Positions 24,601 to 63,556 of a stretch of 64,000 nt of DNA are shown one piece after another. Location of the stretch: contig NC_049994.1 in assembly GCF_000003815.2 (NCBI RefSeq), forward strand, positions 4,692,534 to 4,756,533, given 5' to 3'. The position numbers and the translations under genes are program-made. Below the pieces are notes generated by a model, which was given only the letters and a program-made list of their open reading frames with translations, had not been told where the DNA came from and ran no database searches. The first letter of the stretch is position 1. The number at the start of each line of letters is the position of its first letter. This DNA comes from Branchiostoma floridae (lineage: Eukaryota > Chordata > Leptocardii > Amphioxiformes > Branchiostomatidae).

Positions 24601-26429
24601 TAAAACAAAGACAATAATGCAACAATATTTTTTCTTTCTTACTATCTATGAAATTCATTGAGTGATCTGTTAAATCTTAATTTCAGCCTAGCGGTCACTC
24701 AGTTGTCCTCCAGTTGGAAAGGTAACACAGAAATGAAAATTATATCACTCATTGAAACGCTAGTTCAACTTTACCTGCCGGGTAACCTATATCTGTTTTT
24801 GTCAAAAACAGCCAGTATACAGAGATAGCAAGTTGTAGGGCAGTCAGGCTTTTAAACTGCAATATTTTGACAATATCATTAAATGCAATTTGAAACTACT
24901 GTCCGTCAATTAAATGTTCCTTTTAAAACACCCTATATCAGAAACAGATATATTAGTTAACCCACAGATAAAGATGAACTAGCATTATATAATTTATACA
25001 CAACAGGAATAGGTTTTACAATACAGAATAAAGAAATCATCTCAGATGCTGACCTGGACATTTTGAAGAGACTCCATGAGTTGCTGGTAGGATGGGGCTG
25101 ATGATGTCATCTGACAACTTTTAGCTGCAGAATGTTCTGGAGAAGTAAAGTGATCATCAAAATGCTTTGAATTCATAAATAAAACTGTTTTGAGAATGTT
25201 GCAAACAACTAATGTGGAAAAGCCTGTACCTTTTGGGGAAAAAGCAGCCATTGATAGTTTTGAAGGGTCAGAGGTCACTAAGACAAATTACCCAAATAGC
25301 GTTGCAATATGAAAGTTCAACCCATACTTCATTGGGTGTCATCGAATGGGTCTTTTCACGTCGTAGAATGCGCTAATTTTGTTGTAAAACGTATTTGGGG
25401 AAAGTTGTTCAAGAACGCACAGCAAATGATTTATTGTTTGGTATATGTGTACTATATTCACTTATTATAATAAGCTTGTCAATGTAAAACCTTCCAAACT
25501 AGATGTACTTGTACTTGACCTTTTTTGCACCCTTGCATTGATTTTGGGGTGCCCAGTGAATGGCTTTAAAGTCAAGTAAGCAATATTAGCCCGAGCCAGG
25601 GTTGTAGAACTTCAATCATCAAAGTATTACTTTTCTACGTAATACTAAAAAAATGAAGCAACTCTATTCCATTCCATACCAACATTCAAGGAGCAAATAT
25701 TTGATGCTGCAGTCTAATTTTTGTGGGGTACAATAATTAGGGAATCCTGGTGCTGATATAAGTGTGGGAATAGGGCTGTGTACCTAAATACCCGTACCTG
25801 TAATGTACCTAAAAAATTGTTTAGGTACAGGTCCGGACCTAAACATCTGTGTACCTGTGCCTGTACCTAAACAAATTAAATCACTATTAAACACTACTTT
25901 TTAAGACTGCTGGACACATAAATCCAGAATCAACAATGACAATGGTGATAATCTTGCAGTTGAAACTTAAGAAAACTTGCAAAGAAATTGTTTTGAGATT
26001 CAATATGTAATTGCCCATACAAAGATAACAATTTATCTCTAGAAAAGACAGTTAGCTACATGTTTAACTTACATATACGTGGTTAAACTTTTTTAGGTAC
26101 AGGTGCAGGTCCGGACCTGTACCTAAACCCGTGTACCTGTACCTGTACCTGTACCTGAAAATTTGTTTAGGTACACAGCCCTATGTGGGAATATAGTTCA
26201 GTAGATATCAATTTGATTCAGATTGTCTCATTCAGAATTTTTCATTTTTAACGCTCTAATATTGCTTAGGCTGCTTCAAAATCATACCAAGAAAAAAATT
26301 GTTACCAGGCCCTTCATCTGGTGAGTCGGCCAGCTCAAACAGTTCATCTAGGTCATCATCAAATAGTTCCTCCACCTGCTGTTGGGTCAGGCCCACACGG
26401 TCAACTATCTCATGCAGACCTGTCTCCAT
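9609..26429 (-). CDS. MEIOSIN-like: MEIOSIN-like transcription factor: bHLH + HMG box + CW zinc finger (11 exons, 647 aa)
   Basis: Likely a nuclear regulator of meiotic entry. Exons (minus strand, in order): 26306-26429, 25054-25124, 19199-19809, 18423-18507, 16080-16404, 14855-14954, 14137-14247, 11463-11662, 10743-10845, 10388-10518, 9609-9691. All phases agree and the sum is 1944 nt including TAA. Residues 1-41 are acidic ([13 protein letters not shown]). Residues 108-247 are 14-residue repeats. About 254-318 form a bHLH split by an intron: helix 1 has [10 protein letters not shown], helix 2 has [17 protein letters not shown]; the basic region lacks the usual His/Glu contacts. Residues 427-495 form an HMG box ([32 protein letters not shown]), followed by a basic stretch [10 protein letters not shown]. 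Residues 549-598 form a CW finger with C555, C558, C579, C590 and aromatic W552, W561, W577. Ten introns are GT-AG except the last, GC-AG. bHLH plus HMG is known from MEIOSIN/BHMG1; orthology is inferred. Exon 5's donor (gtacca) is the weakest splice site. Confidence 0.82.
9905..10265. repeat. Degenerate AATCTTGAGATTT repeat
   Basis: More than fifteen variants of AATCTTGAGAT or its partial complement ATCTCAAGAT occur at irregular 20-30 bp spacing. It fills most of the GC-AG intron (9692-10387) of the MEIOSIN-like gene. Confidence 0.7.
10868..10990. repeat. (GA)n-rich tract
   Basis: GAGAGAGA with GGGA interruptions just right of exon 9 of the MEIOSIN-like gene; it makes RERE/LSLP spurious frames. 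Confidence 0.9.
11115..11285 (+). mobile_element. tRNA-derived SINE
   Basis: Pol III-like boxes: AGCTCAACTGATAGCTGAG (A-box region) and CAGTTCAATCCTAGG (B box), followed by GGGCATCTCGGTTTGGGC and a GTGTTTGACGAGACGTCTC tail. It matches the SINEs at 23.5, 32.7 and 47.3 kb. Confidence 0.65.
11733..12095. repeat. (CACT)n microsatellite/minisatellite
   Basis: CACTCACTCACACACTAACT units repeated with higher-order structure. The plus-strand frames ([13 protein letters not shown]) are artefacts. Confidence 0.95.
12156..13689. other. Intron sequence of the MEIOSIN-like gene
   Basis: Non-coding between exons 8 and 7. I see no clear element apart from the flanking CACT tract. Confidence 0.5.
13690..14096. 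mobile_element. Diverged copy of the TAGGGCTGGG hAT-like MITE
   Basis: GAGTACCGGTACAAAACC, GTTGGACTGGTCTGG, a GAACAGATTAT segment and a terminal GAATTCTCTGTACCG align in order with 29698-30115. The ends are eroded and no target duplication is visible. It lies in the intron between the two HMG-box exons' neighbours (exon 7 and exon 8). Confidence 0.65.
14279..14772. mobile_element. MITE family C (GGATGACATCC ends), copy 1
   Basis: It begins ACCACAGCAAGTAAATTC followed by GATGACATCC and ends with GTGGATGTCATCCATATAA. Internal AGTGACACTTAAGTGTCGGG and TGGTATCAC blocks are shared with the copies at 33511, 37841 and 43543. It lies between exons 7 and 6 of the MEIOSIN-like gene. Confidence 0.75.
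15756..15954. mobile_element. Foldback MITE family D, copy 1
   Basis: It starts TACTGTAAATGCAGAAAC and ends CATTTTACAGTGTA. Inside, GGTTTAATGTTTGCGGTT pairs with AAACCACCGCAAACATTTTC-type blocks. Similar copies are at 19979-20180 and 22851-23020. Confidence 0.8.
16440..16705. repeat. Interspersed repeat shared with 9165-9385
   Basis: GGTAACATTTGCAAGCAAAT, GCTCTGTCCTGCCACTTGCT and CAGGTCATTGACCTAAT align with 9165-9385. It lies in the intron just right of exon 5. Confidence 0.65.
17355..17705. mobile_element. MITE family E with CCTTCACAC termini, copy 1
   Basis: AGGGCCTTCACACTGAAAC at the left and CTCGTGTGAAGGGGTC at the right, with an internal CCCCTTCACACGAGAAGG. Internal ATTCGTAGTGTATTCTAGAA is shared with 56150-56175, and 17355-17490 is the reverse complement of 57915-58048. 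Confidence 0.7.
17905..18310. mobile_element. Foldback element whose arms carry a Penelope-type GIY-YIG C-terminal fragment
   Basis: The arms are inverted: CCGATAACCTGTGTCGCCCC against GGGGCGACACAGGTTATCTG and outer CCAACACCAAGTTTGATTGG against CCTAATCAAACTTGGTGTTG. Each arm, read outward, encodes the C-terminal motif [20 protein letters not shown] found at the end of GIY-YIG-bearing retroelements. It lies in the intron between exons 5 and 4 of the MEIOSIN-like gene. Confidence 0.7.
19264..19683 (-). repeat. Coding 42-bp minisatellite, ten 14-residue units, in exon 3
   Basis: Within exon 3 of the MEIOSIN-like gene, residues 108-247 read as ten consecutive units of exactly 14 residues with consensus F-H-G-N-T-P-P-x-S-G-R-E-R-H alternating with a form ending in N/D-M-E-L-L. 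The period of 42 bp keeps the frame open. The same repeat makes long spurious open frames on the plus strand. The tract separates the acidic N-terminus from the bHLH and is probably disordered. Confidence 0.9.
19979..20180. mobile_element. Foldback MITE family D, copy 2
   Basis: GGTTTTAAGTTTGCGGTAGC in the left arm and AACATTAAACCACCGCGAAC then CTGCATTTACAGTA at the right end. It lies in the intron just upstream (right) of exon 3 of the MEIOSIN-like gene. Confidence 0.8.
20680..20962 (-). mobile_element. tRNA-derived SINE with well-preserved tRNA-like head
   Basis: 20878-20958 on the minus strand can form a tRNA-like acceptor stem (GCGTCGG with CCGACGC), has TAACTGGTAGAGCATTCGG as an A box and GAGTTCGATCCTC as a T arm, then the body CTTGGGAAAGGCACTTTACA. 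The tail region 20685-20800 is shared with 61305-61420. It is not a functional tRNA because it continues into a SINE body. Confidence 0.7.
21495..21790 (+). mobile_element. tRNA-derived SINE
   Basis: ACGGTGGCCTTGTGGTTAGG resembles an A box and TTTGAATTCCTGACAGG a B box; the body TTGGGAAAGGCACTTTACAC matches the SINE at 20.8 kb, and the tail GTGTTTGAGGAGAACCACAC matches 36.1 kb. Confidence 0.65.
22851..23020. mobile_element. Foldback MITE family D, copy 3 (eroded left end)
   Basis: TTTAAGTTTGCGGTAACACC at the left and CACCGCAAACATTTCTGCAT then TTACAGTA at the right. The terminal left bases are degraded. Confidence 0.7.
23525..23815 (-). mobile_element. tRNA-derived SINE
   Basis: The minus strand reads AGCTCAACTGGTAGCAGCTT then GGTTCAAATCCTGG, followed by GGGCATCTCAGTTGAGG-type body, as in the SINE at 32.7 kb. 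Confidence 0.6.
24756..24986. mobile_element. Foldback MITE family A, copy 2
   Basis: It starts AACGCTAGTTCAACTTTACC and ends GATGAACTAGCATT. Inner GGGTAACCTATATCTG and AGATATATTAGTTAACCC pair. It lies in intron 2 of the MEIOSIN-like gene, just right of exon 2 in reverse order. Confidence 0.8.
25771..26183. mobile_element. hAT-like MITE, second subfamily, 413 bp, in an intron of the MEIOSIN-like gene
   Basis: The ends are TAGGGCTGTGTACCTAAA and TTTAGGTACACAGCCCTA, with target duplication TGTGGGAA at 25763-25770 and 26184-26191. The subterminal GGTACAGGTCCGGACCT blocks relate it to the TAGGGCTGGG family, but the interior differs. Confidence 0.9.
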
Positions 26430-26487
26430 ACTGATCACAGTTGCTGGGGGGAGAGAATCATTGCATAAACAAGTGACTGAACTGACA

Positions 26488-26870
26488 AAGATGGATGGAT
26501 GGGTGGGTGGGTTTGTGGGTGGTTGGTTGGTTGGTTGGATGGATGGATGGATGGATGGATGGATGGATGGATGGATGGATGGATGGATGGATGGATGGAT
26601 GGATGGATGGGTGGGTTGGTGGGTGGGTGGTTGGTTGGTTGGATGGATGGATGGATGGATGGATGGATGGATGGATGGATGGATGGATGGATGGATGGAT
26701 GGATGGATGGAAGGATGGATGGATGGATGGATGATGGGTGGATGGATGGATGGATGGATGGATGGATGGATGGATGGATGGATGGATGGATGGATGGATA
26801 GATTTGGGTGGGTGGTTGGGTGGGTTTATGGATGGGTGGATGGATGGATTGATGGATGGATGGATAAATG
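26488..26870. repeat. (GGAT)n microsatellite
   Basis: GGATGGATGG with GGTTGGTTGG and GGGTGGGT interruptions, 45 bp right of the first coding exon of the MEIOSIN-like gene. The MDGWMDGW frames are artefacts. Confidence 0.95.
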
Positions 26871-26979
26871 AGGAATGGACAGATGGTTAGATGGCTGGAT
26901 TGCCGGATAGAGAGAATGGCATTGAATGAATTGAATTGAATGAAGTCACAACAAAGGAATATTTACAGATAGATAAATA

Positions 26980-35110: not shown

Positions 35111-38100
35111 ATGGAAGACAGCGACGAGGAACCGATTCGAATATACCTGAAAAATTGGTGAGTGGGAAACTGGCTTTAACCAATACTTACTGTGTAATAG
35201 AATCGTATGGTGGTTGTTCAAACAAAACGTTGCGGAACCTAGTGCTAGTGTTGTCCACAATACCTGCGAGTCCAGATGTCACTTCCTAAGCTTACGTCAA
35301 AGCCTGGATTCATAGACATATGTTGTAAATGAAAATATCATTTTACAGCACTCGAGGGACTTATGTAATGCATTTTTGTCAGACTCAAAAGCAAGACAAG
35401 CTACACATGAAACTATAGTGATCTAGGCACTTGCAGATATATTTCAATGAACACTCAACATATCCAAAACAACCTAGTTTGACTTGAAACTAGCGAACAG
35501 TCTAGGACGTATGTTTAGGAGTAACGTTATGTGTATGACTGATGTGAATGTTTGCATGTGCATGTGCATGTATTTATGTAAGTGTATCTGTGTACATTGT
35601 AACCGATCAAAATACAACACTGGGCAGTATAGCTTTTGCTATCGTGACCAAGATATTTCTCATGCGTTTTGATAAACAGAATATGGCGAAACTCAAATGG
35701 CAAAAATCGTACATTTTCCCCATTACCAAGGATTGAGAAGAAATCGAGCCTATATGTTAGACTACGATACTCGTTCCAACATGTCCTCAGCATGTCTTGT
35801 AACCTGTACTTAGCTCGGTTAAGCAAAGATGTACAGATTATTCATTGTAATAACACTGGTAACCATTCACCTAGAATCTTTAACATACATACAAAAAGGC
35901 TTATCTTATCTTTTATTATTGGGTTACTAGACTTGAGTTACAGACTGCTCTCTCGTTGCAGAAAGGGGCTTAATTGCGAGAGATTACAATAGGCAGGGCT
36001 AAATCACAAGGGTCTGGTAATGGCAGCATGTATACAGACAGCCCTAGTGACCTCAATACGACAGTGATTGCCAAAATGATTAAAGTGCAGCAAAGGGAAT
36101 GCATACGTTGAACCACACATACCGAGAATAACCCCTACTCTTTTCGATGAGTCTGGCGGGGTCTTTAACGTGCTTGAGGTTTGGCTCTCCTCAAACACGG
36201 GACCTCAATGTATTTACCACATAACAATTCCTGAAGGCCACTCAAGGTTAAAGGTTACAAGATTGTAACTGTAACAGCATCTCTTCGCCCTAGGTCAGAA
36301 ACATCATGTTTTTATAAAGGTCCTATGCGAGGGACGGCCCTAACTGAAGCTAGGTACTCATTTCCAACTGAGTAAAAGCCGTGGTTTGAATCTGACACAA
36401 CAGATATTATAACATTCGCATCTACGAAATGAAATTGATGAAATAGATTAAAACACTCTTGTAGTGTTCTATCCCACGCAATATAGGTGGTAGTATTTTT
36501 TTCTATTTCCATAGAACCACAAATTAAAAAGGATCTATGTTTATAGTAAACGTCGTTTGGGATAAAATATAGCTTATTCAACAACCCTGGGGTAGGGCGC
36601 CTTTAATCAAGTGAGTGTTTGTTTTCGGTAATCAAACAACGTTTGTTTAATCAAGTGTGTTTAGTCGGGTAACTTTTGCTCAAGGGATCAGTCCCTCACG
36701 CAACAAGTAGGTTAATAACAACACCTACATCCTGTTAGGGTATCGATAAGTCGCTTGCGTTGCAACGTAATGCGAGAGCACATTTACAAGAATTACATGG
36801 AAAAACTGTCTTTCGAACGTTATTCTTGAATTTTCTCTGGTAAATATTGCTAACTTGTGGTTTGTATACATGGGCATTTACTTAATTTACATTGCATTCT
36901 GATATTGTTTGGCGTCATACATAGACATTCAGAATGATCCCTGCAACAAAATGTTTTAGATATATGCATGAAATTACTTTTCAAGGTAAAGAGGAAAACT
37001 GACACGTATTTTCGAATCTCACGCATATTTTTCATCACGCATGGCGACCGAAAAATTTCAATTTTGTTGATTGTCTTTCTCCAGTATGAATATGTACCAT
37101 GTCCTTGTCAATATTGCATCCATTGTTGTTGTTGCTGTGAATGACATGTATACTTTTGTCCCTACAACCAAAGGATGCCGACACAATTCTTTTCTCCAGA
37201 TAAAAACATTACCGTATGTTGCGCTGTTAAGTGTATTAAGTGGCCGACACCAGGCCATAAAACCATAAACGTAATACAGGTTAGGACCAATACATTTATA
37301 AATGGTTTCCGCTCTTTTGTACTAATGCACTCCTCGCATTTGATATTAAGGGGAAATAGAGACAGATGTTATATCTTACAATATTTTCATTTTTTTTTAT
37401 CTCAGTAATGTGGGTAACTGAATCCTAAAATGCCCTAAAGTAGAAAAGGTGACGAACAAGCTTGACTCATAAAACATGTATTATTATTATAACGCGGGGT
37501 AACCTATATCTGTGGGGTAACCCATATCCGTTGCTTCAAAAACAGGGTTTATAGCCATACCAAGTCGACGGACGGTATTTTGAATCTAAGAATCTTTCAA
37601 AATATTGCAGTTCAAAACCGCTTTGATAACCCTTAATACCATGTTTTAGAAACAGATATAGGTTACCCTGTGCATAAAGGTGGACTAACGTTATATGTCA
37701 AGAGTTAAAAGGGATTGATGGTTTGTATATATCTAATTGATTGTCATTTCTGGTCAACTTTGGACTTCAGCGGTTAACTTTAGGTAAATGTTTTTGCACG
37801 CACATGTTTTCAAAGTGTTCTGATGAAAAGTCATTTTCTCTTAAGGCAACAGCAAGTAAGTTCAATGGATGACAACAAAGCCCTCATGAATTTCCTAATT
37901 TCAGAATGAAAAAGGACTTTTTCATCTTTTGGGCATGGTCAACATGACGAGAAATTACCAAGATGAGCAAATGTGTTGTACCCTAATGATTTTACTTGTA
38001 GAAGTGACACTAGCGAGGTAGCCATGCCTGTAACTTTGGTTGTAGAAATGATAAGGTAACATCAATTATGGAAGCCATGACTGTAGTTTCCAACTTGGTA

Positions 38101-41100
38101 ATTGATACCAGTATACCACACTAGTGCAACTTTTACTGCACTAGTTAACTTCTTGAATACAGGAATGCAGTGAAACCATGTTTTGTCGCTTCAATTATTG
38201 ATATAACGTTTATGTTTTCTATTCTACAGAAATAGCCTTCCTGTTTTTTACCCTTCTTGTTTTTCCTCACTCTCTTCAGTCTTCATGATCAGTGGATGTC
38301 ATCCATAAAATTTACTTGCTGTAGCATAAGAATAAACATTCTTAAGAGCTTAAACCGATTTTGTGTCCTCATATTCTCCTCATCCATGTATAATGGCGTT
38401 TTTGTCTAATCAACATAAAAAAATGTTATTTCTGTATGCAATGAGGCCTTTCTATTAACCTCCTCGCTGCATGATCCACGTTGAACAAATTTGAACCGAA
38501 GCTCGAAATCCTTTAATGTCGTGCTAGATGCGACTTGGGCACTTTAAGTAATGTCAAAACAAGATGTATAAATAGGCACTGAGTCACATATCTATTTTTG
38601 TGCGACTCTCATGCCTATTTTTCTGCTCCAAAATGCATTTAGATTTTACCTTTTTATGAAAATTTTAAATTTGTCAAATGCGTTTCTTCCGTACCTCGTT
38701 TTCATTGGCAATCTGTTGAAAGTTTGTCTATCCTTCCTAGTTGAGTGCTCTGGCCTCTTAATGTAGTCATTCATTACCTTACAGAAGGGGGTGAATGACC
38801 TTAACAGGGGTACTTTTATTCTGTTCGTGTCGTCTGTGTTTTAGGTACAAATCAAGATTCTTGTGATGGATATATTTGGATATTGTCACATTGATAGTCG
38901 ACGTCATTTTGTTCCCGAGGAAACATGGTAATTTTGGGCACAGTAGTAGTGTTTTGTAGAATTATAAATCGACACCCCCATCTGAAAGGTAGAGTGGTAT
39001 AGCCATTGAATCAGCCGCCGCTTGTCTAATGGTAGTACTTGGTTGTATAAGCTGGGGCAATTAGGTACTCTTCAAGCAGAGAATAGACTCTAGCTGACTT
39101 GCTACACTGCCTACTTTGGCTGGTGCCTGGTGTTAACATGATCAGCTACCTAGACTTAAATGGAAACAAATATTTAAAAAAAAACGTTATTTCTGATTAA
39201 AAAAGGGTATAAACACCTTCGCCCACACCACAAGCATCATAATTACATCACGCAGGTTTGTGTCCTACGAACTCTTATTTTACCTGTTGTTGGACGATTA
39301 GAGGATAATCGGAAACTACAAAGAAACACGCATAAACCGGTCAGTAGTTTTTTATTCCACTTCTCAGATTGTGTACAATCTGGGGGGGAGTCGGCAACAG
39401 AAATCAAGTTCCTCTACGAGGCCGACTCCCCCAAAGATATACAAACTTAGGATAAAAACAAGCCTGACATTAAATACATACAATAATACATACAATAAAA
39501 ATGAGAGAATAGCAAGGCATAACAGAATAATGGGGGATCAAACTATGTCGCTATGCATAATGAGCATCTGCAGGTGGTTATCCAGGTACATAAGTTATCA
39601 ACAGTAAATGTGTCGCTTAATCGGGATCTATAATATGAATATGAAACCAAGAATTTTTTAACTGACTGTAGAGTGAGGTTAGAAAGGTTTTGAAAGGGTG
39701 AAGGCCCAACTTGTGTAAGTGTGCATTTCCACAGAGATTAGCGTGGTAGGCATAGCCATCAAACCATGATACACAAGAGAACGTTGAAAAAGAGAGTGGT
39801 GACATCAAGTGATCCGTAACATAAAGCTTCTGAGTGCATCACACAAACATCAAAACTTTGATGATAGAACCGTTGCTCCTTTGCTACTAAAGAAGATATT
39901 ACAAAAGCCCAGCTACAGAATGACGTGACAGAAGATAGGTCGAAATTCTCATTACTTTAAGTTATTGATAACGTAAGGCCACACAGCAAACAACTAATAT
40001 GGATGTCATCCTTTGCAGACCGCAAAAATAATAAGATGAGTTGTGTAGGATTGGTTCGTTAAATGTTTTTGCCTTGTCGTAAGGAAGGAGATATCAAATA
40101 TCAGACATCCTTTCATCTTTGAATTGTCTTAATTTTCTTAGTGAAGAACGAAGTTGTGTAGGTTTGGGCCCACTAGTTCGTTAAATATTTCTGCCTTGCC
40201 GTAAGAAAGGAGATATCAAATATCAAACAGCCATTCATGTTGGAATTGTCTTAATGTTTTAGTGGTAGATATGGCTTTTGATATGATAGTTGAAGGAAGA
40301 GGTGGTGTAGGTTTGGGCCCACTAGTTCGTTAAACATTTTTGCCTTGCCGTAAGAAAGGAGATATCAAATATCAAACAGCCTTTCATGTTTGAATTGTCT
40401 TAATTTTAGTGGCAGATGGGCTTTCGATATAGCCGTTGAAGAACGAAGTGGTGTAGATTTTGGCCTTCTAGCTCGTTAAATATTTTGCCTTGCAGTAAGG
40501 AAGGAGATATCAAATATCAAACATCCTTTCATGTTTGAATTGTCTTAATTTTAGTGGCAGATGGGCTTTTAATATAACCGTTGAAGAACGAAGTGGTGTA
40601 GTTTTGGGCCCACTAGTTCGTTAAATGTTTTTGCCTTGCCGTAAGGAAGGAGATATCAAATATCAAACATCCTTTCATGTTTGAATTGTCTTAATTTTAG
40701 TGGCAGATGGGCTTTTAATATAACCGTTGAAGAACGAAGTTGTATAGGTTTGGGCTCACTAGTTCGTTAAATGTTTTTGCCTTGCCGTAAGGAAGGAGAT
40801 ATCAAATATCATACATCCTTTCATGTTTGAATTGTCTTAATTTTCTTAGTGAAGAACGAAGTTGTGTAGGTTTGGGCTCACTAGTTCGTTAAATGTTTTT
40901 GCCTTGCCGTAAGGAAGGAGATATCAAGTATCAGATATCCTTTCATGTTTGAATTGTCTTAATTTTCTTAGTGAAGAACGAAGTTGTGTAGGTTTGGGCC
41001 TACTAGTTCGTTAAATATTTCTGCCTTGCCGTAAGAAAGGAGATATCAAATATAAGATAGCCTTTCATGTTGGAATTGTCTTAATGTTTTAGTGGTAGAT

Positions 41101-44100
41101 ATGGCTTTTGATATAATAGTTGAAGCAAGAAGTGGTGTAGGTTTGGGCCTTCTAGTTCGTTAAGTATTTTTGCCTTGCCGTAAGAAAGGAGATATCAAAT
41201 ATAGACAGCCTTTCATGTTTGAATTGTCTTAATGTTTTAGTGGTAGATATGGCTTTTGATATAATAGTTGAAGCAAGAAGTGGCGTAGGTTTGGGCCTTC
41301 TAGTTCGTTAAATATTTTTTGCCTTGACGTAAGAAAGGAGGTATCACGTATCAGACAGCCTTCCATATTTGAATTGTCTTAATGTTTTAGTGGTAGATAT
41401 GGCTTTTGATATAATAGTTGAAGCAAGAAGTGGTGTAGGTTTGGGCCTTCTAGTTCGTTAAATATTTTTTGCCTTCACGTAAGAAAGGAGATATCACGTA
41501 TCAGACAGCCTTCCATATTTGAATTGTCTTAATTTTGTTGGTGGTAGACGGCTTTTGATATAATAGTTGAAGTAAGAAGTGGTGTAGGTTTCGGCCTTCT
41601 AACTCGTTGAATATTTTGCCTTGAAGTAAGGAAGGAGATATCCATATCACACATCCTTTCACGTTTGAATTGTCTTAATTTTTTAGTGGTAGATATGGCT
41701 TTTGATAAGATAGTTGAAGCAAGAAGTGGTGTAAATTTGGGCCCACAAGTTCGTTAAACATTTTTGCCTTGCCGTAAGGAAGGAGATTTCAAATATCAAA
41801 CATCCTTTCATGTTTGAATTGTCTTAATTTTAGTGGCAGATGGGCTTTTAATATAACCGTTGAAGGAAGAGGTGGTGTAGGTTTGGGCCCACTAGTTCGT
41901 TAAATGTTTTTGCCTTGCCGTAAGGAAGGAGATATCAAATATCATACATCCTTTCATGTTTGAATTGTGCGGTTTGATTGCATATACATTTACATGACGT
42001 CTGTATGCTTACCTTGTGGCAGTCACGATTAACACACACAGAGGTCAGTGAACGGGAAATAGGATATAAAGAAAGTGCAGAGCTTGGGACAACACGGACT
42101 AAGCCTACTCTAATTTTTTTTACCTCCATGACAAATGTATAAGATATTTTAAATAATGACAAATGGCAAGTGCGATGAGAGTGCACCTTAAGCAAAGTGA
42201 GTAGATTTTTTTTTTAATAATTTTTTTTAATTCAAACTTTATTCAATATTTCAGCATAATACACAATAGCTCATACATATACATCATTGGAGCACAATAA
42301 AAAAAACATTAACATGTGGTATAACAGGACTGGGTGGGAGAGAGAGAGGGATAACAAGCGTTGATCATTGGTCTGTGATTGACTTAACAGGTATATCTAA
42401 GGGATATCTATCATTGGCATATTGGCAATTTTAGCTTTAAAGTATTTCAAGTTTGGTTTCAAATCTTTCAAAAAACAGGTGTAAATTACATATTTGGCAA
42501 TAAGGATACAATGTAAAAGCTTGTTGTCTCTATATGTTTCAGATATTTCATATATAATCAAGTTCTCATCTATGTTCAGATCTTGCTGTGTTTTGATTTT
42601 AGTAGTGAGTAGATACTGATGAAATAATTTTCGTCAACAGGGGAGTAGGTACAAGGATTATATTACCACTTCTGAACCAATACCACTTTGCACCGGTGTG
42701 TCGAAATAAAATAAAGGGCAGCGAACCCGATAGAAGGTGACTTGATACTTCCTTTGTCAAGCTGTAGTCAGTCGTTCTGTTGCACCGGGTGAATGGTTGT
42801 AGTATGGTTTGATTAATAATAAAATGTTCATTTGCAAGTTCATGACCGGAGGCTAATTGCAAGTACATGGTAGAAACATAGGGAACATACAATAACATGT
42901 AGCAATGGAAATAGTGATAGATATTATTATAAAAAGTGACTACTCTAACACTAGTGTTGGCTATTTATAAATAGGTTGGGTTTGACTTTTTTTGGAAGCA
43001 GAGGAAGCCCCTCTTTTTCTACAATTTGTGGATTCTGTGATTTTAAGAAGAAAGTGGTGTCTGTTCGTCTGTGAATGTGGGGAAGTTGGGGCATCTCATT
43101 GTGACTTCTCTAAACAGACTGATTCGTTACGGTTTAATGAACACTTGGAAATAAAATGTATTTCGTCTTACAATGCTTTAGATGCACAGTATTTACCAAT
43201 TCTTGATTTGTTAATGAGTTGCTTTTTTTCTATTGCGCCATTTCTGTAAAAAAAACTATGCCCACTTTCCATCCATCAAATGTCACGAAGGGATTTGATG
43301 ATAAGGGGCATTTTTCACCACGCTCCAGCAACTGGGAATTAGATATAGGAATTATCAACACTTTTGAAACGTAATTAACAATATCAATTTGCACCGATAT
43401 GTCGAAATGTGAGGAAGGACGTTGAAACCGCGCTAGAAGCCTACCTGATCAGGTTGGACAGTCGACCCAATGACGTTCTATTCTTGGTCGGCCAGTTGCG
43501 TGGATTCTGAGTTAATGAGTTTCCTTGACTTAGTACTGTACTGTAAGGTCACAGCACGTAAATTTTATTGATGACATCCTATGCAGAATGCAAATAGATA
43601 GCGCGAAAAAAAAAACAAGATTGGTAAAAAAACAAGATGGCAAATTCTTTTAAATAGACACCATAAACAAGTAACAAGATTTGAAGTGACAAAATCGTGG
43701 CATCACAACTAACAAGGCATTCCTGTATTGAAGAAGTGAACTAGTGTGGTAAAAGTGACACTAGTGTGGTACACTGGTATCACTTGCCAAGTTGGCAACT
43801 ACATTCATGGCTTCCATATTGGTGGCACTCTTACAACTATCCAAGTTTCACTTCTGCAACTCTAGTCATGGCTACCTCCCTAGTGTCACTTCTACAAGTA
43901 TAGATGTTAGTCTACAACACAATACGTTTCCCCATTTTGGTCTATCTAACAATCCCCCGAGAGGTTTTTTTTTTCTTAAATCATGCGAAAATTAATGAGC
44001 GCGCTGATGTCATCCATAAAGTTTACTTGCTGTGGCATAATAAAAAAATGGATACACGTACGATATGATTGATATCTCCGCTTCTAAACTAATATCAATT

Positions 44101-45360
44101 TGCACCGATGTGTTGAAATAAAAGACAAGACATCGAAACCACCAGTAGACTATATCTGATTAGTTTCTTTGTAGAGTTGCGGCAACGAGGTTAAAATACT
44201 TGATATTTGAATACTATAGGCAGGTCGGCACAAGTAGAAGTGGCCTCTGCCGGCTAAACTCCTTCCCAAGCTTATGATACTATGATTTTATGCCACAGCA
44301 AGATCTGCTTGGAGAGCAACACTGAGTCAAAGGTACCAGTCAAAGGTGGCAGGAAATGATATTGGCCCAGTCCAAAGTCCCACTATTTGTTACAGGACAA
44401 GGAATTGGACTAGAGTAAGGTTGTCTGTGTGTTGTTGTTGTTTTCAATGAGATCAAGTAAAGCAAGAGAATTACTCAAAACTTTAGATATCTCATGAAGG
44501 TTTTTGATCTCCGAACTCTTGGTACCAAATGTACTATTCGCCTAAGAGGAGAGCTCATAAAAATTCGATGTCAAGAAATTCTATTTTGTGTGAGTCCGGA
44601 AATCAAGTCATTGACTTAACGCAGCCAAACGAACCTGATACAGATGTAGTCTCTGTCGTTAAATACCAAAACGTTGCGTGAGATCATCACCATGGTTACG
44701 GCAAACACAAGCTCTCGGTATGGTGCCTTTTAAGATCTGTTGATCCCCGTATGTCAAGGGACATGTTGCCAGTGGGTACGCTCTCTAATGACGTTTGATT
44801 GACGTACACCTGGCGCGTTGGGAAGAGTCCAAAAATAATCTCAGACCACCTGACGACAAGGAAATCAAGAATTTCCTTTGTGAATCTCGCCGCACTCGCG
44901 GCACCAGTGTGGCACTGCGGTGTTCAAAAGATACTCAGCGAATTTCAGAGATAAAGAACGAATCTTCTTACGTTTTGTGTATTTTGTTGTGTTCTAAGTC
45001 ATCCATGTACATATTACGCACTATCTAAATTGTTTTAAAAAATCGGAGAAAATAACGCCGCAGTGCCGCACCGGTGCCCTAAGTGCAGTGAGATACCATC
45101 TTCATCGTTCTTTGATAGCCGATTGATGTATTGCTGCACAATAGAACAGCTTGATCATCCTGCTCAAACTCTTTGACAGAGCGTATTTGGTTTCTAACAT
45201 CATGAAACGTTTTGTAGTTGCATCTTGGAAATTCTGTTTTCCCCCAAGGGCACCGAAGCAAGTTACTTTCACAAATGTATTTGTTTGATATTGCATCACT
45301 CGCGTAGCAACAGTCATAGTCTTTAGATTCCGTTCCTTAAGAATCTAGTTATATCTTTGT

Positions 45361-45408
<48 letters not shown>

Positions 45409-45460
45409 TGTGTTTGTGTGTTTGTGTGTATGAGTGTGTGTGTGTCTCTCTCTCTCTGTG

Positions 45461-45499
<39 letters not shown>

Positions 45500-48435
45500 T
45501 GTGTGTGTGTTTCTGAACAACATATCTGGCATGTTGATAGAGGTTGGACAAAGACTCAGACATAACTAGCTTTTGGGCCCTCTGTTGGATTTCTACGGCA
45601 CTGCAGTGGAGCATCCGGTTTTGCTGTCTCATTGAAAATATAGCCTTGACATTTGACCTTCTTTTTGTTTAATTCAATCATAGCACTACCAAATGTGTTG
45701 GTATTGTAAGATTTAGATTTAGATTCAGAACAGAAACGATCAAAAACAAACTGAGGTAGTAAAATGCACATTGTAAGGAAATAAAAATAAATATTAGCCA
45801 ACAATATTCCTATATAGTGATGTTCAAATCTTAAGAAAATAAAGCTTTCTTGCAATGGCACCGTATTTTATACCATGATTATCTTTGTCACGCTACCTTA
45901 AAAAGAAGTTACATCTCGCATCAAGGGAATATGTCTTAATCGCTATCTCACGCTGCGCATCACGCACCCAGTAGCCATCTTCACTGGTAAATTAATTAGT
46001 TCTTTAGTATCTTAGCAACTGACGACTTACATCGTCTGTTTGTGGGAGCCTCCGGTGACAACTATCAATCATTAGAGCATCGTGCTTCATCTAAATTGAG
46101 TATGATTGCTTTACATCTCTATCTATTATTGTTGTCGGGCTTATGGATTCATGTAGGTTTCATCTTATAGAAGAAACCTTTTGGTGTCTTTTTACAAAAC
46201 CAGATCCGATACTTTTCAAAGCATCTTGTATCAGTTGAGATGGAGCCAATTCGATAAGGCAAACATGCTGCACTGCGTCAGTGAATGATTTTTTTTTTAA
46301 TTCATGACCACATAACAGAAACAAGGACAATTGAAGTGAAGGATTGTGCTCCCTGAATAATACGTTGCGTGCTTGCATAGAAAGAAAGGTGCGAATTCAT
46401 TTTTTTTAAGTCTCTATATCATAAAAGACAGTGTATGTGGCAATATCTAATGCTTGAGACCGTATTTAGCTAAGTCAGAATTGCCCCGAATAATGTGAAG
46501 GAATGGCCCACAGCCTATGTCACATATTCAGACCGGAAGTGTGACGTCAGCAATGGGCCAAAGGTGCTTGGAAGTCGATATCGGCCCCGGTCTCGGTTGA
46601 GGGAAGGTTGATGGGCTCTGATGTAGATGGCCCCTTTCACTCCCCCGAGAAAGTTATCCTGTTCGGAATCCAGTATCTTCACCTTGCCGAAATCCACAGA
46701 ATGTCCCGGTGATACAGATGAGGGTCGATACCGACTTCCCAGCACCTTTGACCCATTGCTCACGTCACACTTCCGGTCTGGATGATGTGTGATATAGGTC
46801 ATTTTAACTTGATAAGGATCAGAGGACCGATCGAAAGCTTGTTGGTAAGCACTTTATTTTGTGCACGGATATAAAGTTTAAAATTGCAACATAATGATGA
46901 ACTTACATTAGAGTGGTTTCATTTAATTCGTGTAATGTATTATGTGCCTGGATGTATAAATTTCATCAAGATTGCAAATGAAGTCTCCTCATGTGAATTC
47001 AATTGCAAAGGCAATCCAGTTCAGGTTTGTCAGACTTTATTTTGTGTTCGAATTTTAAAAAAAAAAATTCTATTTCTTTCAGCGAGAAATGAGGGTCGTT
47101 TTCTCGCTACTGGGACTTGGCGAGGCAGGTCAATGCAAAATACCCACAAGAAGAAGTCAACAAACGGAAAGGAAAACCAGGTATGACACGGCTCATTGTT
47201 ATGTTTTATTCGTTATTCGTTCGTTTAGTAGCCTGGTATCCAGCCGCATTATAGCTCCAAAGTCTCTTCGGAGAGGATAGAAGAGACTCGGGAGATATAA
47301 TACAGATGGATACCAAGCAATTCGTTTGGACCATTGTCGTGCCTAGTTGCACATAGTCTTCTTGCTGTTTCAGTAGCAGGGTATTATTCTACAGAGAGTG
47401 TTGCTAGATATTCCCCTTTAACGTGCCTGAGGTACCTCCTAAAACACGGAATCTTAATTATACGTCCCTTCCGAAAGACGGGTGCAGCCCCAACCGGTAT
47501 GCCTATCCGCGACTCAATTATTGGCCCCTATAACCTTATCGAAACCAGGAGTATAGAAATTACATTTGAAAATGATAAATCAAATACATTCTAAAAAGGA
47601 CATGTTTGTATTTCATTCCTCTGCTATAGGCCTGGTGGAAGTGTATCTAAACGGAGAGATGGTGTACTGTAAGGCAGCTTCTGGCAGTTACCCCTCATCG
47701 GGCGAGGTAGGTAGCAACCTAGGTTACAACGTTTTCGGACTTTATAGAATTTATCATCCTCCTACGCATGGACACCCAACGGCGAAACCTTCTATCTGGA
47801 AGTACTCTGCTTTCTCAACTGCATCCTTAGTTCCTGACCGCCCTGCTTATGAATATTAATGAGCTTACCCTTATACACGTATATGCGAGACCCCTTTTGA
47901 AAACTGAAAGGCTTATTTTCTGATTAGCTGACAGTTGGTTGGGGGGGGGGCGTTCACAGGAACTAAGAGTGACGGTTGAGAAAGCAGGGTACATCCAGAC
48001 AGGCGGTTTCGCCTTTGGATGTCCCTGCGTAGGAGGATGACACTTAATACACCTGTTTATTCTAAAAGATTTACAAATCTCAAGGTTAATTTTGAAACCT
48101 TCTAATCTGAAAGTTTTAATCTTAGTTGGAATATATTATTGTGTTCTTTTTAGATTGTTGACGCGATCCTCGATATCTCCGAGGCCAAAAGTAGTTCCTC
48201 GCTAGCGGAGAAACGCCACAGCGTCAAAACAACCCCCGACATCAGCTGAGTCAGACCCAAGTTCCCCAAGGATCCCAGTAGCGACAATAAATGTTTCCCG
48301 GATGTGCCTGATATCCCGGATGTTCAAGACGACTCGCCTGTTTGCATCGTAGACGTGGGAGACAAGGACGACGGGAAGATGTTTCGAATGGAACCCCCTC
48401 GTACTGGCATATCCCGTCTGTGTTCCATACTGTAG
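35111..48435 (+). CDS. Rdx-family selenoprotein (SelW/MIEN1/SelH-like) with CxxU motif; second in-frame UGA and CaaX-like end
   Basis: A thioredoxin-fold redox protein. Exons: 35111-35157, 47083-47180, 47630-47706, 48154-48249 (to the second UGA) or to TAG at 48433-48435. Phases 2, 1 and 0 all join. Exon 1 gives MEDSDEEPIRIYLKN (first beta strand). The exon 1/2 junction creates TGC, then GAG AAA TGA GGG: C16-E17-K18-U19-G20, the CxxU site. Exon 2 continues RYWDLARQVNAKYP (helix). Exon 3 gives LVEVYLNGEMVYCK, like the paired strands with an N-G turn in MIEN1 and SelW, then SYPSSGEIVDAIL. UGA codon 106 is at 48247-48249; the 61 codons after it are open and end in CSIL, comparable to the CaaX box that ends MIEN1. 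A SECIS lies about 820 nt further on. Stopping at codon 106 gives 105 aa; decoding it gives 167 aa. The start has a good context (aacATGG). Which Rdx subfamily it belongs to is not settled. Confidence 0.85.
36005..36225 (-). mobile_element. SINE tail region
   Basis: The minus strand reads GAGGTCCCGTGTTTGAGGAG, CACGTTAAAGACCCCGCC and AAAAGAGTAGGGGTTATTC, matching the 3' part of the SINE at 21.5-21.8 kb. A related degenerate tRNA-like head may lie at 36300-36420. Confidence 0.5.
37491..37692. mobile_element. Foldback MITE family A, copy 4
   Basis: It starts AACGCGGGGTAACCTATATC and ends GGTGGACTAACGTT. A second GGGTAACCCATATCCG follows the first, a small internal duplication. It lies in intron 1 of the selenoprotein gene. 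Confidence 0.8.
37841..38329. mobile_element. MITE family C, copy 3
   Basis: The ends are TTAAGGCAACAGCAAGTAAG and TTTACTTGCTGTAGCATAA, with GATGTCATCCATAAA just inside. It lies in intron 1 of the selenoprotein gene. Confidence 0.8.
38330..40009. other. Intron 1 of the selenoprotein gene, mostly unique sequence
   Basis: A poly-G-flanked inverted pair occurs at 39380-39430 (GGGGGAGTCGGC and GCCGACTCCCCC). No exon candidate. Confidence 0.4.
40010..41975. repeat. Tandem array of about 14 units of 120-150 bp
   Basis: Each unit holds TAGTTCGTTAAATG/ATT, TTGCCTTGCCGTAAGGAAG, GAGATATCAAATATCA, CCTTTCATGTTTGAATTGTC and GGTGTAGGTTTGGGCC. Copies of the TTCGTTAAA landmark lie near 40055, 40168, 40326, 40472, 40617, 40763, 40886, 41008, 41155, 41304, 41454, 41602, 41750 and 41896. 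Two length classes (about 122 and 146 bp) differ by an insert with GCAGATGGGCTTTTAATATA. It sits in intron 1 of the selenoprotein gene. Confidence 0.9.
42000..43542. other. Intron 1 of the selenoprotein gene, unassigned
   Basis: A/T-rich; the frames at 42599 (-) and 42992 (+) lack splice support. Nothing else recognised. Confidence 0.35.
43543..44040. mobile_element. MITE family C, copy 4
   Basis: The left end holds GTCACAGCACGTAAATTTTA-TTGATGACATCC; the right end GATGTCATCCATAAAG-TTTACTTGCTGTGGCATAA. Solo ends of this family occur near 23220-23265, 25530-25590, 39985-40040, 54815-54860 and 62425-62455. Confidence 0.8.
44885..45092. mobile_element. Foldback element
   Basis: CTCGCGGCACCAGTGTGGCA at the left mirrors GTGCCGCACCGGTGCCCTAA at the right, followed by matching GCGGTGTT and AACGCCGC. 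The frame at 44795-45028 partly covers it. Confidence 0.55.
45358..45515. repeat. (GT)n microsatellite
   Basis: GT run broken by GTTT, TCTCTC and TACG; both strands give spurious frames. Confidence 0.95.
46505..46800. mobile_element. Second foldback element with Penelope-type fragment
   Basis: AGACCGGAAGTGTGACGTCA and its mirror TGCTCACGTCACACTTCCGG frame a palindrome. The minus strand reads GAIYIRAHQPSLNRDRGRYR, the same motif as at 17.9-18.2 kb. It lies in intron 1 of the selenoprotein gene, 280 bp before exon 2. Confidence 0.7.
47225..47545 (-). mobile_element. tRNA-derived SINE in intron 2 of the selenoprotein gene
   Basis: TGCTGTTTCAGTAGCAGGGT, ACGTGCCTGAGGTACCTCC and CGAAAGACGGGTGCAGCCCC are shared with the SINEs at 32.7 and 61.0-61.3 kb. 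Confidence 0.6.
47753..48042. mobile_element. Foldback MITE inside the last intron of the selenoprotein gene
   Basis: The left arm, starting ATCATCCTCCTACGCA, and the right arm, ending TGCGTAGGAGGATGAC, are long imperfect inverted repeats of about 90 bp containing GCTTTCTCAACnG and TTAGTTCCTG. The element fills most of the 447-bp intron 47707-48153. Confidence 0.75.
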
Positions 48436-48718
48436 AGTGTTAAACGGAAGAAGAGCTACTTTACAAGCGATTCCATTGTTTTTCCTGGCCTGAAATACAA
48501 CTTGAATCCCTTTGAAATCCTTTTTCCGCAACAAATTCCCCTCAGTGCAGTCTCCGTATTTCATGTTAGACTGATCCTAACTGTCAGTCAAATAAGCCGT
48601 TCAACCAATGATAGCTTGTCAATTATCGTTTTGATCAATGGTGGCATGTCCGCCTAAATATTTGCATATACATGTTTTGGCGGAGGTGGGCGTGGCAATG
48701 GGATCGGTCTATCACAAT

Positions 48719-48933
48719 AAGCTCTTTCACACTTGTGCAGCGACAGGAATTGTGGGTAATGTGTCAAAGGTGAACGCCCCTGGGACATACACAAAGGATC
48801 TCAGGACATTGTTATGCACATCGAAACAATGGTCGACACGAGTACTGTTTACAAATCAGGGGCCTTCACCTTTGACATATTACCCACAACTCCCGTCGCC
48901 GCACATGCGTATTCGGAAGTGTGAAAGAGCTTT
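48719..48933. mobile_element. Foldback MITE in the selenoprotein 3' UTR
   Basis: AAGCTCTTTCACACTT at the left is matched by AAGTGTGAAAGAGCTT at the right. The arms continue inward (GTGGGTAATGTGTCAAAGGT against ACCTTTGACATATTACCCAC). It sits between the TAG at 48435 and the SECIS element and lengthens that spacing. Confidence 0.8.
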
Positions 48934-49256
48934 TAATACCTTACTAATATGCTTCATTGTAATGCAAAACGATTTTCCGCTTAGAATTTTACAAAATTCA
49001 CCACATATTTCTCTGCAAACTATTTGTAAAGATAATGAAATTCCACACTCTCAACAGTTTATAACAGATGCACACATTGTGAAATTTTGTACTTTTCAAC
49101 TTATATGAGTAGAAGGAACAGAAAATGTCATGAAAAAACTGTGTTCCACTTTGTATTTTGGACAACATTCAAAGTACGCTCAGATTCTAGCTATTTTTGG
49201 TACATGTAGTTTGTAACATAGATATGCAGTATGTGTGGTATGAAACCCGGACGTTA

Positions 49257-49337
49257 GAGTGAAGCGGTATTAATGAAGGCCTGCGCCGAAACGATGATGC
49301 TTCGGGGCGTAGACCTGATCCTCTTACCGTTATACTC
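49257..49337 (+). promoter_or_regulatory. SECIS element (type II) in the selenoprotein 3' UTR
   Basis: An RNA signal that directs UGA to be read as selenocysteine. Helix I: 49257-49269 pairs with 49325-49337 (one A·A mismatch, G·U pairs). The internal loop is followed by the core ATGA at 49273-49276 opposite TGAT at 49316-49319, giving tandem G·A pairs. Helix II: 49277-49287 pairs with 49306-49316 with one mismatch. Unpaired AAA is at 49289-49291, 12 nt after ATGA, the spacing expected of SECIS. A short apical stem, CGA 49292-49294 with TCG 49302-49304, makes it type II. It lies on the same strand as the UGA-containing gene. Confidence 0.85.
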
Positions 49338-49488
49338 AATAGATGTTGTTTTCTACAATATATAATATCTTGGATGTATAAATTATTTACCTTGAAGTTT
49401 GTATTTATGTTTTGTATCTCTTTATGTATAAACAACATCTACGTCTTGCTACACTTCGTGTCCCACAATTTCTTTCATAGTTCTGCTT

Positions 49489-56417: not shown

Positions 56418-57803
56418 CATCATCATCACCATCATCATCGTTCATCCTCGTGTGAGGTGAAGCAGACGAAGTTAGTCCTCCAGAACTGCTTGTCCTTCAT
56501 TGCAGAGAGTAGCCCTTACCCTTCCAGCCCTGTTTCGACCACAATGAGTTTCTTAAGAGTTGTACTTGGGTGGCCAACCCTTCTCTTTGCGTCGGTGGAC
56601 CACAACGAGAGTCTTCCAGCTGGTTCATTGCAACGAGCGACATGACCCGCAAGGCATAGTCGACGCTGCTTCACTTTTGAAGAGACTTTTGGTAGTGATC
56701 CATACAACTGTGTGTTTGTAGTGTGTTTCCACCATGGACAGTTGTAGACTACACGAAGCATCCTCGTATATGTGCCATTGAGTTTATGGAGTTGTGACCT
56801 AGTCATAAGCTAAGATTCAGAACCGTACAAACGAATTGTTTCAATACATGTCTGAAAGAGTTTTGTCTTGGTCTGCTTTCTGATGGGGGATTTCCAAACT
56901 CTGTGTAATGACTGAAGGGCACTCCATGCCAAGGCTATCCTAACATTCATATCATGACCATTATCAGTGAAACCTCCTAAGTATTTGAAGTCGGTGACCT
57001 GCTCAATTGAGGTACCGTCAGATGTTAAAAGCAGACTAGGAGTTGTTGGATTTAAGTGCATAAACTTAGTTTTAGAAGCATTGAGGTATAACCCTATTTT
57101 TTGGCAGGCGGTTTCAACTTTAGTGAGAAGGTTTTGTGCAAGTTCTATTGAATTTTCCAACAAATCAATGTCATCAACAAAATCTAAATCAGGTAGGGTT
57201 TCAGCCGGGTGACGTCGGCTTCGTCTGCGTCGGAGTGTTAGTCCCTCCGATTCAGATATCGAAGACCGCAATGCATAATCGAGACATATAATGAAGAGAA
57301 AGGGTGCCAATGGGTCACCCTGAAGGACGCCGGTATTGATGCTGAATGCATCAGTTTCTCCCTCAGGAGTGATTACCACAGCAGTGGTGTCCTCATACAT
57401 GGCACGTTCAGCACTTACGACATCCGACGGAATCCCGTAAGCTTCCAGTATTTGGAACATTTTGGAGCGATTTATGGAGTCGAATGCTTTGCAGAAGTCA
57501 AAGAATACGAGCAAAGCTTCTTTGGCAAAGTTTTTCAACTCCTCGACAATGCGCCTAAGCGCGAGAATGTGAGAGTTGGTTGATCTTCCTTGGCGGAAGC
57601 AATTTTGGTTTGGACGCAACACTTGGTCAATGACAGGACAAATTCTGTTAAGTAAACAGCGGTTATAAATTGAGGATACGATTTGTGACAAAGAGATACC
57701 TCTGTAGTTGTCTGGTTGCCTTAAGTCCCCTTTCTTAGGGATTGGAATAATACCAGACATGCCCCATTCACCTCTACCGAGAACCAGTGCAGGCGTGGCG
57801 AGC
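56418..57803 (-). mobile_element. 5'-truncated non-LTR retrotransposon (RTE/LINE type) with 7-bp target duplication
   Basis: Flanked by CGCACTT at 56411-56417 and 57804-57810. Its 3' tail on the minus strand is a GATGATGATGGTGATGATG-type simple repeat, common in RTE-like LINEs. Only the reverse-transcriptase and C-terminal part remain; the endonuclease region is missing, as in normal 5' truncation. Confidence 0.8.
56516..57790 (-). pseudogene. Reverse transcriptase fragment with one internal stop
   Basis: Motifs in order: GIIPIPKKGDLRQPDNYRGI, CFRQGRSTNSHILALR, FFDFCKAFDSINR (motif A), GVLQGDPLAPFLF (motif B), LDFVDDIDLL (motif C, with FVDD where YADD or FADD is usual), LNASKTKFMHLN and FKYLGGF. 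A TAG at 56810-56812 interrupts YGSES/LMTRSQL where related elements have Trp, so TGG to TAG is likely. The frame then continues with TRMLRVVYN to 56516. Copy is dead. Confidence 0.85.
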
Positions 57804-58351
57804 CGCACTTACACCATTGGAGCCTAAAGTCAAGCATGACGAAGCTTGGCCCCAGGACAATCCACTACAAATACCCAAAAATAGACAAAGAAAAGTTATT
57901 TTGTCAGCATTTCGGCTCATTCCTTCACGTGTGAAGGGGATGTAAGGACCATTTGAAATTCCCACTCGAATGTGGCACGAATTTTGCAAATTCTTTATTT
58001 CTGCTTGATTCCTGCTATACTTCAGTTTCAGTGTGAAGACCCTATAAGCAAAACGCTAAGGGGACACGTGCACATGCGTATATTAGATATTATTGTCGAG
58101 CAGTTACTTCCTGTTTTCGTTATTTGCCTCTAAATTGGAAATTTGCAAAACATCCGGATTATATCGTCTGACATATCACGCGTCGTCCTTGTATTTCCGT
58201 TTATCCCCATTAGGATATAGATTAGGTTAACTACAACCTTGTACCATTGATAGGCTGACTATTGAGTTACCCAGTCGTTTTATATTAGCTAGACCAGTCG
58301 TGACTAGGCCTCTAGACGTTTTGTTGAATTGTCCGGTTGCGAATTTGAGGC

Positions 58352-60575: not shown

Positions 60576-60789
60576 ACTTACGACGTCAAAGGATGGCTTT
60601 TTAACATTGCGTGAATGCTTTCGACACAAATTACCATACCTACCGTGTACATTCTGAAATAATGTTGTGTATTCTTCTTAACATTTTGTTTTTGTTTCGG
60701 AATTCTGGCCTCTCTTGTCTGCATTTGGGAACTTGTAAAACCATGTTGAGCAGCCCAAGTAATATTTTGTTAACTTAAGTTTTCAAAGG

Positions 60790-61300
60790 ATTGAATTCTT
60801 GTTACTAGTGGGTACTACAAGATCCTTGTAGTGCCCAGTAGCACATGGGGCAGAAAGTTTCTGAATTCTGGCCTTTCTTGTCTGCATTCGGGAAATTGTA
60901 TAACCATGTTGAGCAGCTCCAAAATATCTTTTGACTAAAGTTTTCAAAGGATTTGATTCTTGTTACTACTGGGTACTACAATATTCTTGTAGTACCCAGT
61001 AGTACAAGGATCAAGTTTCCTGGCTGTTTCCGTAGCAGGGTACAGTTTTACAGGGAGGGGTTGCAATCCCTTCAGTGTCTCCTTCAACGTGCTCGCGACA
61101 AGCAGATCCTTACAGTACCCAGTAGTACATGCAGCAGAAAATTTCCTTGCTGTTTCAGTTGCGGGGTACATTTTATACAGGGAGGGGTTTCTATCCTTTA
61201 AGATTCCCCTTCAACGTGCTCGCGACAAGCACCTTCTCGAACTCAGGACCATCATTCTAACACGGTTGCACTGCCCTGGCCGAGATGCCTAACTAAGATT
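60790..61300 (-). mobile_element. Two tandem partial SINE copies with hairpin junctions
   Basis: TTGCTGTTTCAGTTGCGGGG and CTGGCTGTTTCCGTAGCAGG occur about 135 bp apart, each followed by a CAACGTGCTCGCGACAAGCA block. A hairpin of GTACCCAGTAGTAC sequence precedes each. Confidence 0.55.
60964..61004. repeat. Perfect 18-bp hairpin with 5-nt loop
   Basis: The arm TACTACTGGGTACTACAA (60964-60981), loop TATTC, and the exact complement at 60987-61004. An imperfect version is at 60805-60850. Confidence 0.9.
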
Positions 61301-61304
61301 TTTT

Positions 61305-61565
61305 TTCTATTTGCTTTTGGACAGATGGGCACAATGTGGTACTGCACTCAATTGTTGAAACTTATATTAACAGTGTCACACACGGAGTACAGATATAAGG
61401 TAAAAAGTTACCATTTTCACACCTGGGTGAAGTAAGGAAGGTCGTGTAAAGTGCCTTTCCCAAGGGCACAACAAGGGCAAACTAGGATTGAACCGGGGTC
61501 TAAAATTACCAACGAATTAGAAACAGGAGCTCAACTGCTCGACTGCTAACGGTTTATCTAGAGGG
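61305..61565 (-). mobile_element. tRNA-derived SINE, sister of the copy at 20.7-20.96 kb
   Basis: AGTGCCTTTCCCAAGGGC and ATTTGCTTTTGGACAGATGG match 20680-20870 in the same order; the head has AGGATTGAACCGGGG (B box on the minus strand). Confidence 0.65.
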
Positions 61566-63288: not shown

Positions 63289-63556
63289 CTGTGTGTAGAT
63301 GGTGTTCAGCACCAAGGACAGGTATGTTTGCATGTGTGTAGATGGTGTTCAGCACCAAGGACAGTTGTGTTTGCTTGTGTGTAGATGGTGTTCAGCACCA
63401 AGGACAGTTGTGTTTGCTTGTGTGTAGATGGTGTTCAGCACCAAGGACAGTTGTGTTTGCTTGTGTGTAGATGGTGTTCAGCACCAAGGACTGGTACGTT
63501 TGCTTGTGTGTAGATGGTGTTCAGCACCAAGGACAGGTACGTTTGCTTGTGTGTCA
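63289..63556. repeat. 43-bp tandem repeat, six copies
   Basis: GGTGTTCAGCACCAAGGACA begins at 63301, 63344, 63387, 63430, 63473 and 63516, exactly 43 bp apart. GGTGTTCAGCACC is a short imperfect palindrome. Copies differ at only a few sites. Confidence 0.95.

Follow-up and report, generated by a model that had tools for sequence, protein, structure and literature searches.

MIEN1, also named Rdx12 or C17orf37, ends with the residues CVIL and is geranylgeranylated, according to the available excerpts of two papers (PMC3527542, PMC6738349). Relatives of Rdx12 that contain selenocysteine (Sec) within a CxxU motif are described in fish and frog under the name SelW2, and the excerpts of the same source suppose an origin of Rdx12 from SelW2 that predates the amphibian split (Mariotti et al. 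2012, PMC3316567). In amphioxus, the excerpted text of Jiang et al. 2012 (PMC3473315) speaks of a "SelW containing 2 Sec residues", counts two SelW genes in Branchiostoma floridae and presents selenoproteins with more than one Sec as rare. Here, we analyze a gene, hereafter the window gene, located in a stretch of 64,000 nucleotides of the B. floridae genome (the window; assembly GCF_000003815.2, NC_049994.1, positions 4,692,534 to 4,756,533). Its reading frame contains two in-frame UGA codons, UGA1 and UGA2, and is followed by a selenocysteine insertion sequence (SECIS). We consider it fairly likely that this gene encodes a lancelet Rdx-family selenoprotein, that it evolves fast and has a Sec-type MIEN1/SelW2 paralogue elsewhere in the genome, and that UGA2 is probably recoded as well.

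The window gene and its SECIS element

An earlier interpretation made from the DNA letters only (the sequence-only reading) had proposed four exons with compatible phases and a UGA at codon 19. We found the same exons, with GT donors and AG acceptors at all introns (35157/GTGAGT to AG/47083, 47180/GTATGA to AG/47630, and 47706/GTAGGT to AG/48154; Table 1). The spliced reading frame starts with MEDSDEEPIRIYLKN-C-E-K-UGA-G..., and the protein around UGA1 reads MEDSDEEPIRIYLKNCEK-UGA-GSFSRYWDLARQVNAKYP.... An in-frame stop precedes the ATG of exon 1, with no other ATG in between. Ahead of exon 2, the + strand offered 17 candidates for exon 1 (beginning with ATG, nine codons or longer, TG/GTR donor), which were scored against six Rdx strand-1 peptides. 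The proposed exon 1 came first with a score of 11, the second best reached 8, and none of the 17 outscored it.

The spliced protein matched the Pfam Rdx family (PF10262; cut-off 22.6 bits) with 38.4 bits (E 1.5e-9) when Cys was typed at both UGAs, and with 32.8 bits (E 8.1e-8) when UGA1 was entered as X and the protein was cut before UGA2. A SPACA9 match in Pfam over residues 88-116 was dismissed as weak (16.3 bits for a cut-off of 25). The comparison for the nearest relative covered solved structures, among which the best match was human MIEN1 (2LJK, 49 bits, E 4.9e-12), with a runner-up at E 0.1; mouse SelW was absent from the six matches obtained up to E 10. The gene had been placed closest to SelW/MIEN1, and this result bears out that view and narrows it to MIEN1. 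In the alignments, UGA1 lay opposite the second Cys of the CEPC motif of MIEN1 and opposite the UGA of a paralogue on contig C164 (see below), that is, at the redox position where a eukaryotic selenoprotein gene is expected to have its UGA.

As also expected of a eukaryotic selenoprotein gene, a SECIS was found downstream of the window gene on the same strand. An Rfam search of the window returned RF00031 above the cut-off, and the same element was the sole match of a custom pattern scan of the + strand of the window. Its fold had a z-score of -2.55, with 2 of 200 shuffles being equally stable. The element had been described as type II, with an ATGA/TGAT core and AA at 12 nucleotides: core and spacing (12 nucleotides ahead of AAA) were confirmed, but the small apical stem that defines type II is weak. 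Candidate poly(A) signals occur further downstream, for example at 49377 (TATAAA) and 49667 (ATTAAA). Collectively, the Rdx match, the likeness to 2LJK and the RF00031 match support the claim of an Rdx-domain selenoprotein that has a CxxU motif and a fitting SECIS, and the window gene appears, as judged from its sequence, to be a genuine-looking selenoprotein gene. Elsewhere, a genome search for SECIS, in which 150 of 11176 candidates were scored, gave a single other element above the cut-off (C3:26143997-26144058, - strand, 49 bits); no gene could be named within 3 kb of it, in a region that is partly masked.

A paralogue with one UGA in the same genome

Genome searches were performed on the 513-Mb assembly of 431 contigs, in which the window corresponds to C16:4692534-4756533. 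The search with the Rdx family gave one match, an exon on contig C164, and missed the window gene itself, the exons of which are short. Short exons are thus lost in six-frame searches, and non-detection is no proof of absence. The matched exon belongs to a complete four-exon gene with the product MNYSRSKMAPKVEVEYCGG-UGA-GYAPRYQELANQIKTAVPEAEVTGVVGRSSSFEIMVDGQLLFSKLESGGFPQENEILEALSNYKEGEKVEQVTNIQFPWCTIL-TAA. Its intron phases, 2 (inside the Cys codon), 1 and 0, and the 98 and 77 nucleotides of its exons 2 and 3 are the same as in the window gene; by this comparison of the two lancelet genes, the window gene has a MIEN1-like structure. The paralogue has one UGA, at the same place in CxxU, and a CaaX end, CTIL. 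It aligned with MIEN1 up to the last residue, with 80.7 bits versus 26.4 bits for mouse SelW. About 300 nucleotides past its stop (~74711), a SECIS-like hairpin was the single pattern match between exon 4 and the end of the locus, with a fold z-score of -3.59 and 1 of 200 shuffles equally stable. Intron 3 of the paralogue contains, as seen by eye, a long tandem repeat array.

The C164 gene suggests, from its predicted product, that CxxU and CaaX are already combined in a MIEN1-like protein of a lancelet, in contrast to the scenario set out in the excerpts of PMC3316567. The two lancelet genes are also relevant to the origin, from Sec-containing ancestors, of Cys-type MIEN1, which in humans acts in cell migration and is under study in cancer.

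Six-frame searches of the genome with each lancelet protein returned its own exons only, with no further copy of either gene. Mouse SelW matched on C166 (E 0.45) and C5 (E 0.57), with no SelW-like frame around either match. SelW1 was not found in the genome by these searches, but since they lose short exons, its absence is not established.

A CaaX tail behind the second UGA

In the window gene, UGA2 separates the Rdx domain from a 61-codon tail that ends with CSIL. The frame remains open from UGA2 to the TAG at 48433, and the CaaX motif is in frame only behind UGA2. Neither UGA2 nor the CaaX tail was part of the sequence-only reading. A CaaX motif with Leu as the last residue is of the type preferred by geranylgeranyltransferase type I (GGTase-I). 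On both strands of the window, we counted 2620 TGA trinucleotides. In 109 cases, the frame stays open for 61 codons or more past the TGA, and a loosely defined CaaX end was present in only one of these 109 long frames, namely the UGA2 tail. The codon-position score of the tail, for which the training set comprised only the window gene before UGA2 and the C164 paralogue, was matched or exceeded by 13 of 2000 shuffles and by 8 of 1643 intron-1 windows, which is coding-like. The GC content was 0.522 in the tail versus 0.415 in the 265 bases past the TAG.

Several observations weigh against reading the window gene as a two-Sec relative of MIEN1. Its protein scored 33.4 bits with NCBIfam TIGR02174 (SelT/SelW/SelH subfamily; cut-off 34.2) and is therefore not filed under this model; with NF041051, it reached 34.2 bits for a cut-off of 88. 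Identity with the C164 paralogue was 29% over 77 residues, neither gene was picked up by genome searches with the protein of the other, and an Rfam search up to E 5 reported no SECIS for the paralogue. In a tree of seven rows, four of them animal, the window gene was nearest to MIEN1 and the C164 paralogue by path, on a long branch of 1.96 changes per column and without support within the animal rows, and its grouping was not settled. The idea of a separate Rdx subfamily, which had been advanced earlier, finds no backing here either, as this branch is unplaced in the tree and the same-genome paralogue with identical intron phases is MIEN1-like. A possibility was that the long branch and the low identity reflected the decay of a MIEN1/SelW2 duplicate, with UGA2 as a recent nonsense mutation or as a mistake in this single assembly. 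However, the splice sites, the four-exon frame, CxxU, CaaX and the above-cut-off SECIS are all preserved, and we regard such decay as very improbable.

Further adverse points concern the tail itself. It has no Pfam match, and the C164 paralogue lacks this extension. No stable stem follows UGA2 (-4.7 kcal/mol, equalled by all 200 of 200 shuffles), whereas a stem of -17.6 kcal/mol follows UGA1 (equalled by 14 of 200 mononucleotide shuffles). Open frames of 61 codons are not rare in themselves: in intron 1, 258 of 11500 start positions gave one, and when the tail was shuffled, 342 of 5000 versions stayed open. With a stricter CaaX definition requiring an aliphatic third residue, eight TGA-led frames of at least 20 codons were found in the window, the UGA2 tail included; since CaaX also closes such shorter frames, a CaaX end alone is no proof. 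We take the length of the open frame alone as weak evidence and the CaaX end as stronger evidence. All these adverse points would suit a UGA2 acting as a true stop, the product being a 105-residue Rdx protein with one Sec and the frame and CaaX behind it ancestral relics or chance. Yet the CaaX motif takes up the very last codons of the frame, as it does in the paralogue and in MIEN1, the tail is coding-like by codon-position bias and GC content, and an in-frame UGA in a SECIS-bearing mRNA is open to recoding. Moreover, the excerpts of Jiang et al. (PMC3473315) remark that, across the selenoprotein genes, a TGA serving as a stop was found virtually nowhere. A true stop at UGA2 thus seems unlikely to us.

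We also considered that exon 4 might contain a short intron, spliced optionally, whose removal would drop UGA2 and yield a CaaX-bearing protein with one Sec. Within the coding part of exon 4, 12 GT..AG combinations (39 to 171 nucleotides) would remove UGA2 in frame, for instance with a donor after 48190 (aaa/GTAGTT) and an acceptor before 48353. These donors and acceptors are weak by eye, however, with no GTRAGT donor and no clear pyrimidine tract, the stretch taken whole is open and coding-like, and the C164 paralogue reads from its fourth exon directly to the stop. We give little credence to this intron.

Recoding of both UGAs remains the interpretation that we favor. The SECIS would direct Sec insertion at UGA1, which would complete a CxxU redox motif in a thioredoxin-like domain, a step for which the sequence itself argues. 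Most simply, this one SECIS would also bring about Sec insertion at UGA2, giving a full product with two Sec. The GGTase-I-type CaaX motif CSIL of this product would be geranylgeranylated and would bring it to the inner face of the plasma membrane, like MIEN1. A stop at UGA2 would release a soluble form of 105 residues, and partial recoding would produce both the soluble and the membrane-bound forms. Because a stem, which might aid recoding, was seen after UGA1 and not after UGA2, UGA2 may be recoded less efficiently than UGA1; this fits equally well with a switch and with a plain stop.

The switch that we have in mind, tentatively and with considerable doubt, would be a selenium-dependent change of location. 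With plentiful selenium, the two-Sec prenylated membrane form would be made, and with scarcer selenium, the same mRNA would give a soluble redox protein devoid of CaaX. A UGA upstream of introns exposes an mRNA to nonsense-mediated decay, and a UGA in the last exon does not. As UGA1 precedes two introns and UGA2 lies in the last exon, decay in low selenium would be expected to guard only UGA1. With a UGA standing between the redox domain and the predicted lipid anchor, the supply of selenium would determine the destination of the protein and, if this holds true, recoding efficiency at one codon would set the membrane/cytosol ratio of a MIEN1-type protein.

Table 1. Positions of the features discussed. 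Coordinates are those of the window, except for the last row, which refers to contig C164.
Feature	Position	Strand	Remarks
Exon 1, coding part	35111..35157	+	ATG to phase-2 donor within the Cys codon of CxxU
Exon 2 (98 nt)	47083..47180	+	Remainder of Cys codon, E, K, UGA1, first part of domain; phase-1 end
UGA1	47090..47092	+	Codon 19; predicted Sec of CxxU
Exon 3 (77 nt)	47630..47706	+	Middle of Rdx domain; phase-0 end
Exon 4, coding part	48154..48435	+	End of Rdx domain, UGA2, 61-codon tail, TAG
UGA2	48247..48249	+	Codon 106; second in-frame UGA
Tail (61 codons)	48250..48435	+	Ends SRLCSIL, then TAG; acidic and low-complexity by eye; CaaX prenylation motif, X = Leu
Foldback inverted repeat	48729-48782 / 48857-48910		54-nt arms, 87%; between TAG and SECIS, presumed 3' untranslated region; resembles a miniature inverted-repeat transposable element (MITE-like)
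SECIS (RF00031)	49264..49330	+	Rfam 38.0 bits for a cut-off of 35; E 4.9e-4 for the window
C164 paralogue exons	60604-60653, 61255-61352, 62123-62199, 74323 on		Gene from 60604 to about 74409; four exons, complete

Intron 3 of the window gene holds another MITE-like foldback inverted repeat (47754-47819 / 47975-48040, 66-nt arms, 88%). Elsewhere in the window, we noticed two matches to precursors of mir-2060, a lancelet microRNA family (63286-63376 and 63455-63548, with 97.1 and 98.7 bits), an open frame on the - strand (56810-57808) resembling by eye a reverse transcriptase of the long interspersed nuclear element type, and an open frame on the + strand (26299-26871) built of a WMDG-type minisatellite repeat.

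Comparison with described systems

The sequence-only reading had called the gene hidden. This probably does not stand, for a two-Sec SelW of amphioxus was reported in 2012, as the excerpts of PMC3473315 show. Two SelW genes were counted in that study and two genes of the MIEN1/SelW type, with one and two UGAs, were found here. The window gene is thus very probably the two-Sec SelW of Jiang et al., an identification based on the gene count and not on sequence. Their protein and ours share the lancelet origin, the SelW type and the two Sec; in contrast, the excerpts of that paper do not mention a CaaX motif, and its main text nowhere uses the names MIEN1, Rdx or C17orf37. Two predicted Sec also occur in a SelW-like protein of Ostreococcus lucimarinus, which is, however, an alga (excerpts of PMC2375036, which give no position for the second Sec). 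Excerpts of PMC2874816 describe a sea squirt SelW1 that combines a single Sec with two SECIS; neither they nor those on flatworms (PMC3828610) speak of a second UGA. Among the literature matches listed, there was no description of a CaaX motif behind a second Sec, of prenylated selenoproteins or of selenium-controlled anchoring.

The fish and frog SelW2, set beside the window gene by its description in the excerpts of PMC3316567, resembles it by the Sec in CxxU and by kinship with Rdx12, but no second UGA is mentioned for it there. The C164 paralogue has in common with the window gene the phases, the exon lengths, CxxU, a SECIS-like hairpin and CaaX, and differs by its single UGA, by the missing tail extension and by being nearer to MIEN1 (80.7 bits versus 49 bits for the window gene). 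Human MIEN1 resembles the window gene by its thioredoxin-like domain of the Rdx type, by a Cys-x-x-(Cys or Sec)-Gly motif in the equivalent position and by a C-terminal CaaX with Leu last, which in the window gene stands behind UGA2. It has Cys in place of Sec, however, and no UGA before its CaaX, in contrast to the window gene with its UGA1, UGA2 and 61-codon tail. What is new in the lancelet gene, compared with these systems, is the CaaX motif behind UGA2 and, as we infer, a recoding of UGA2 that would gate membrane anchoring.

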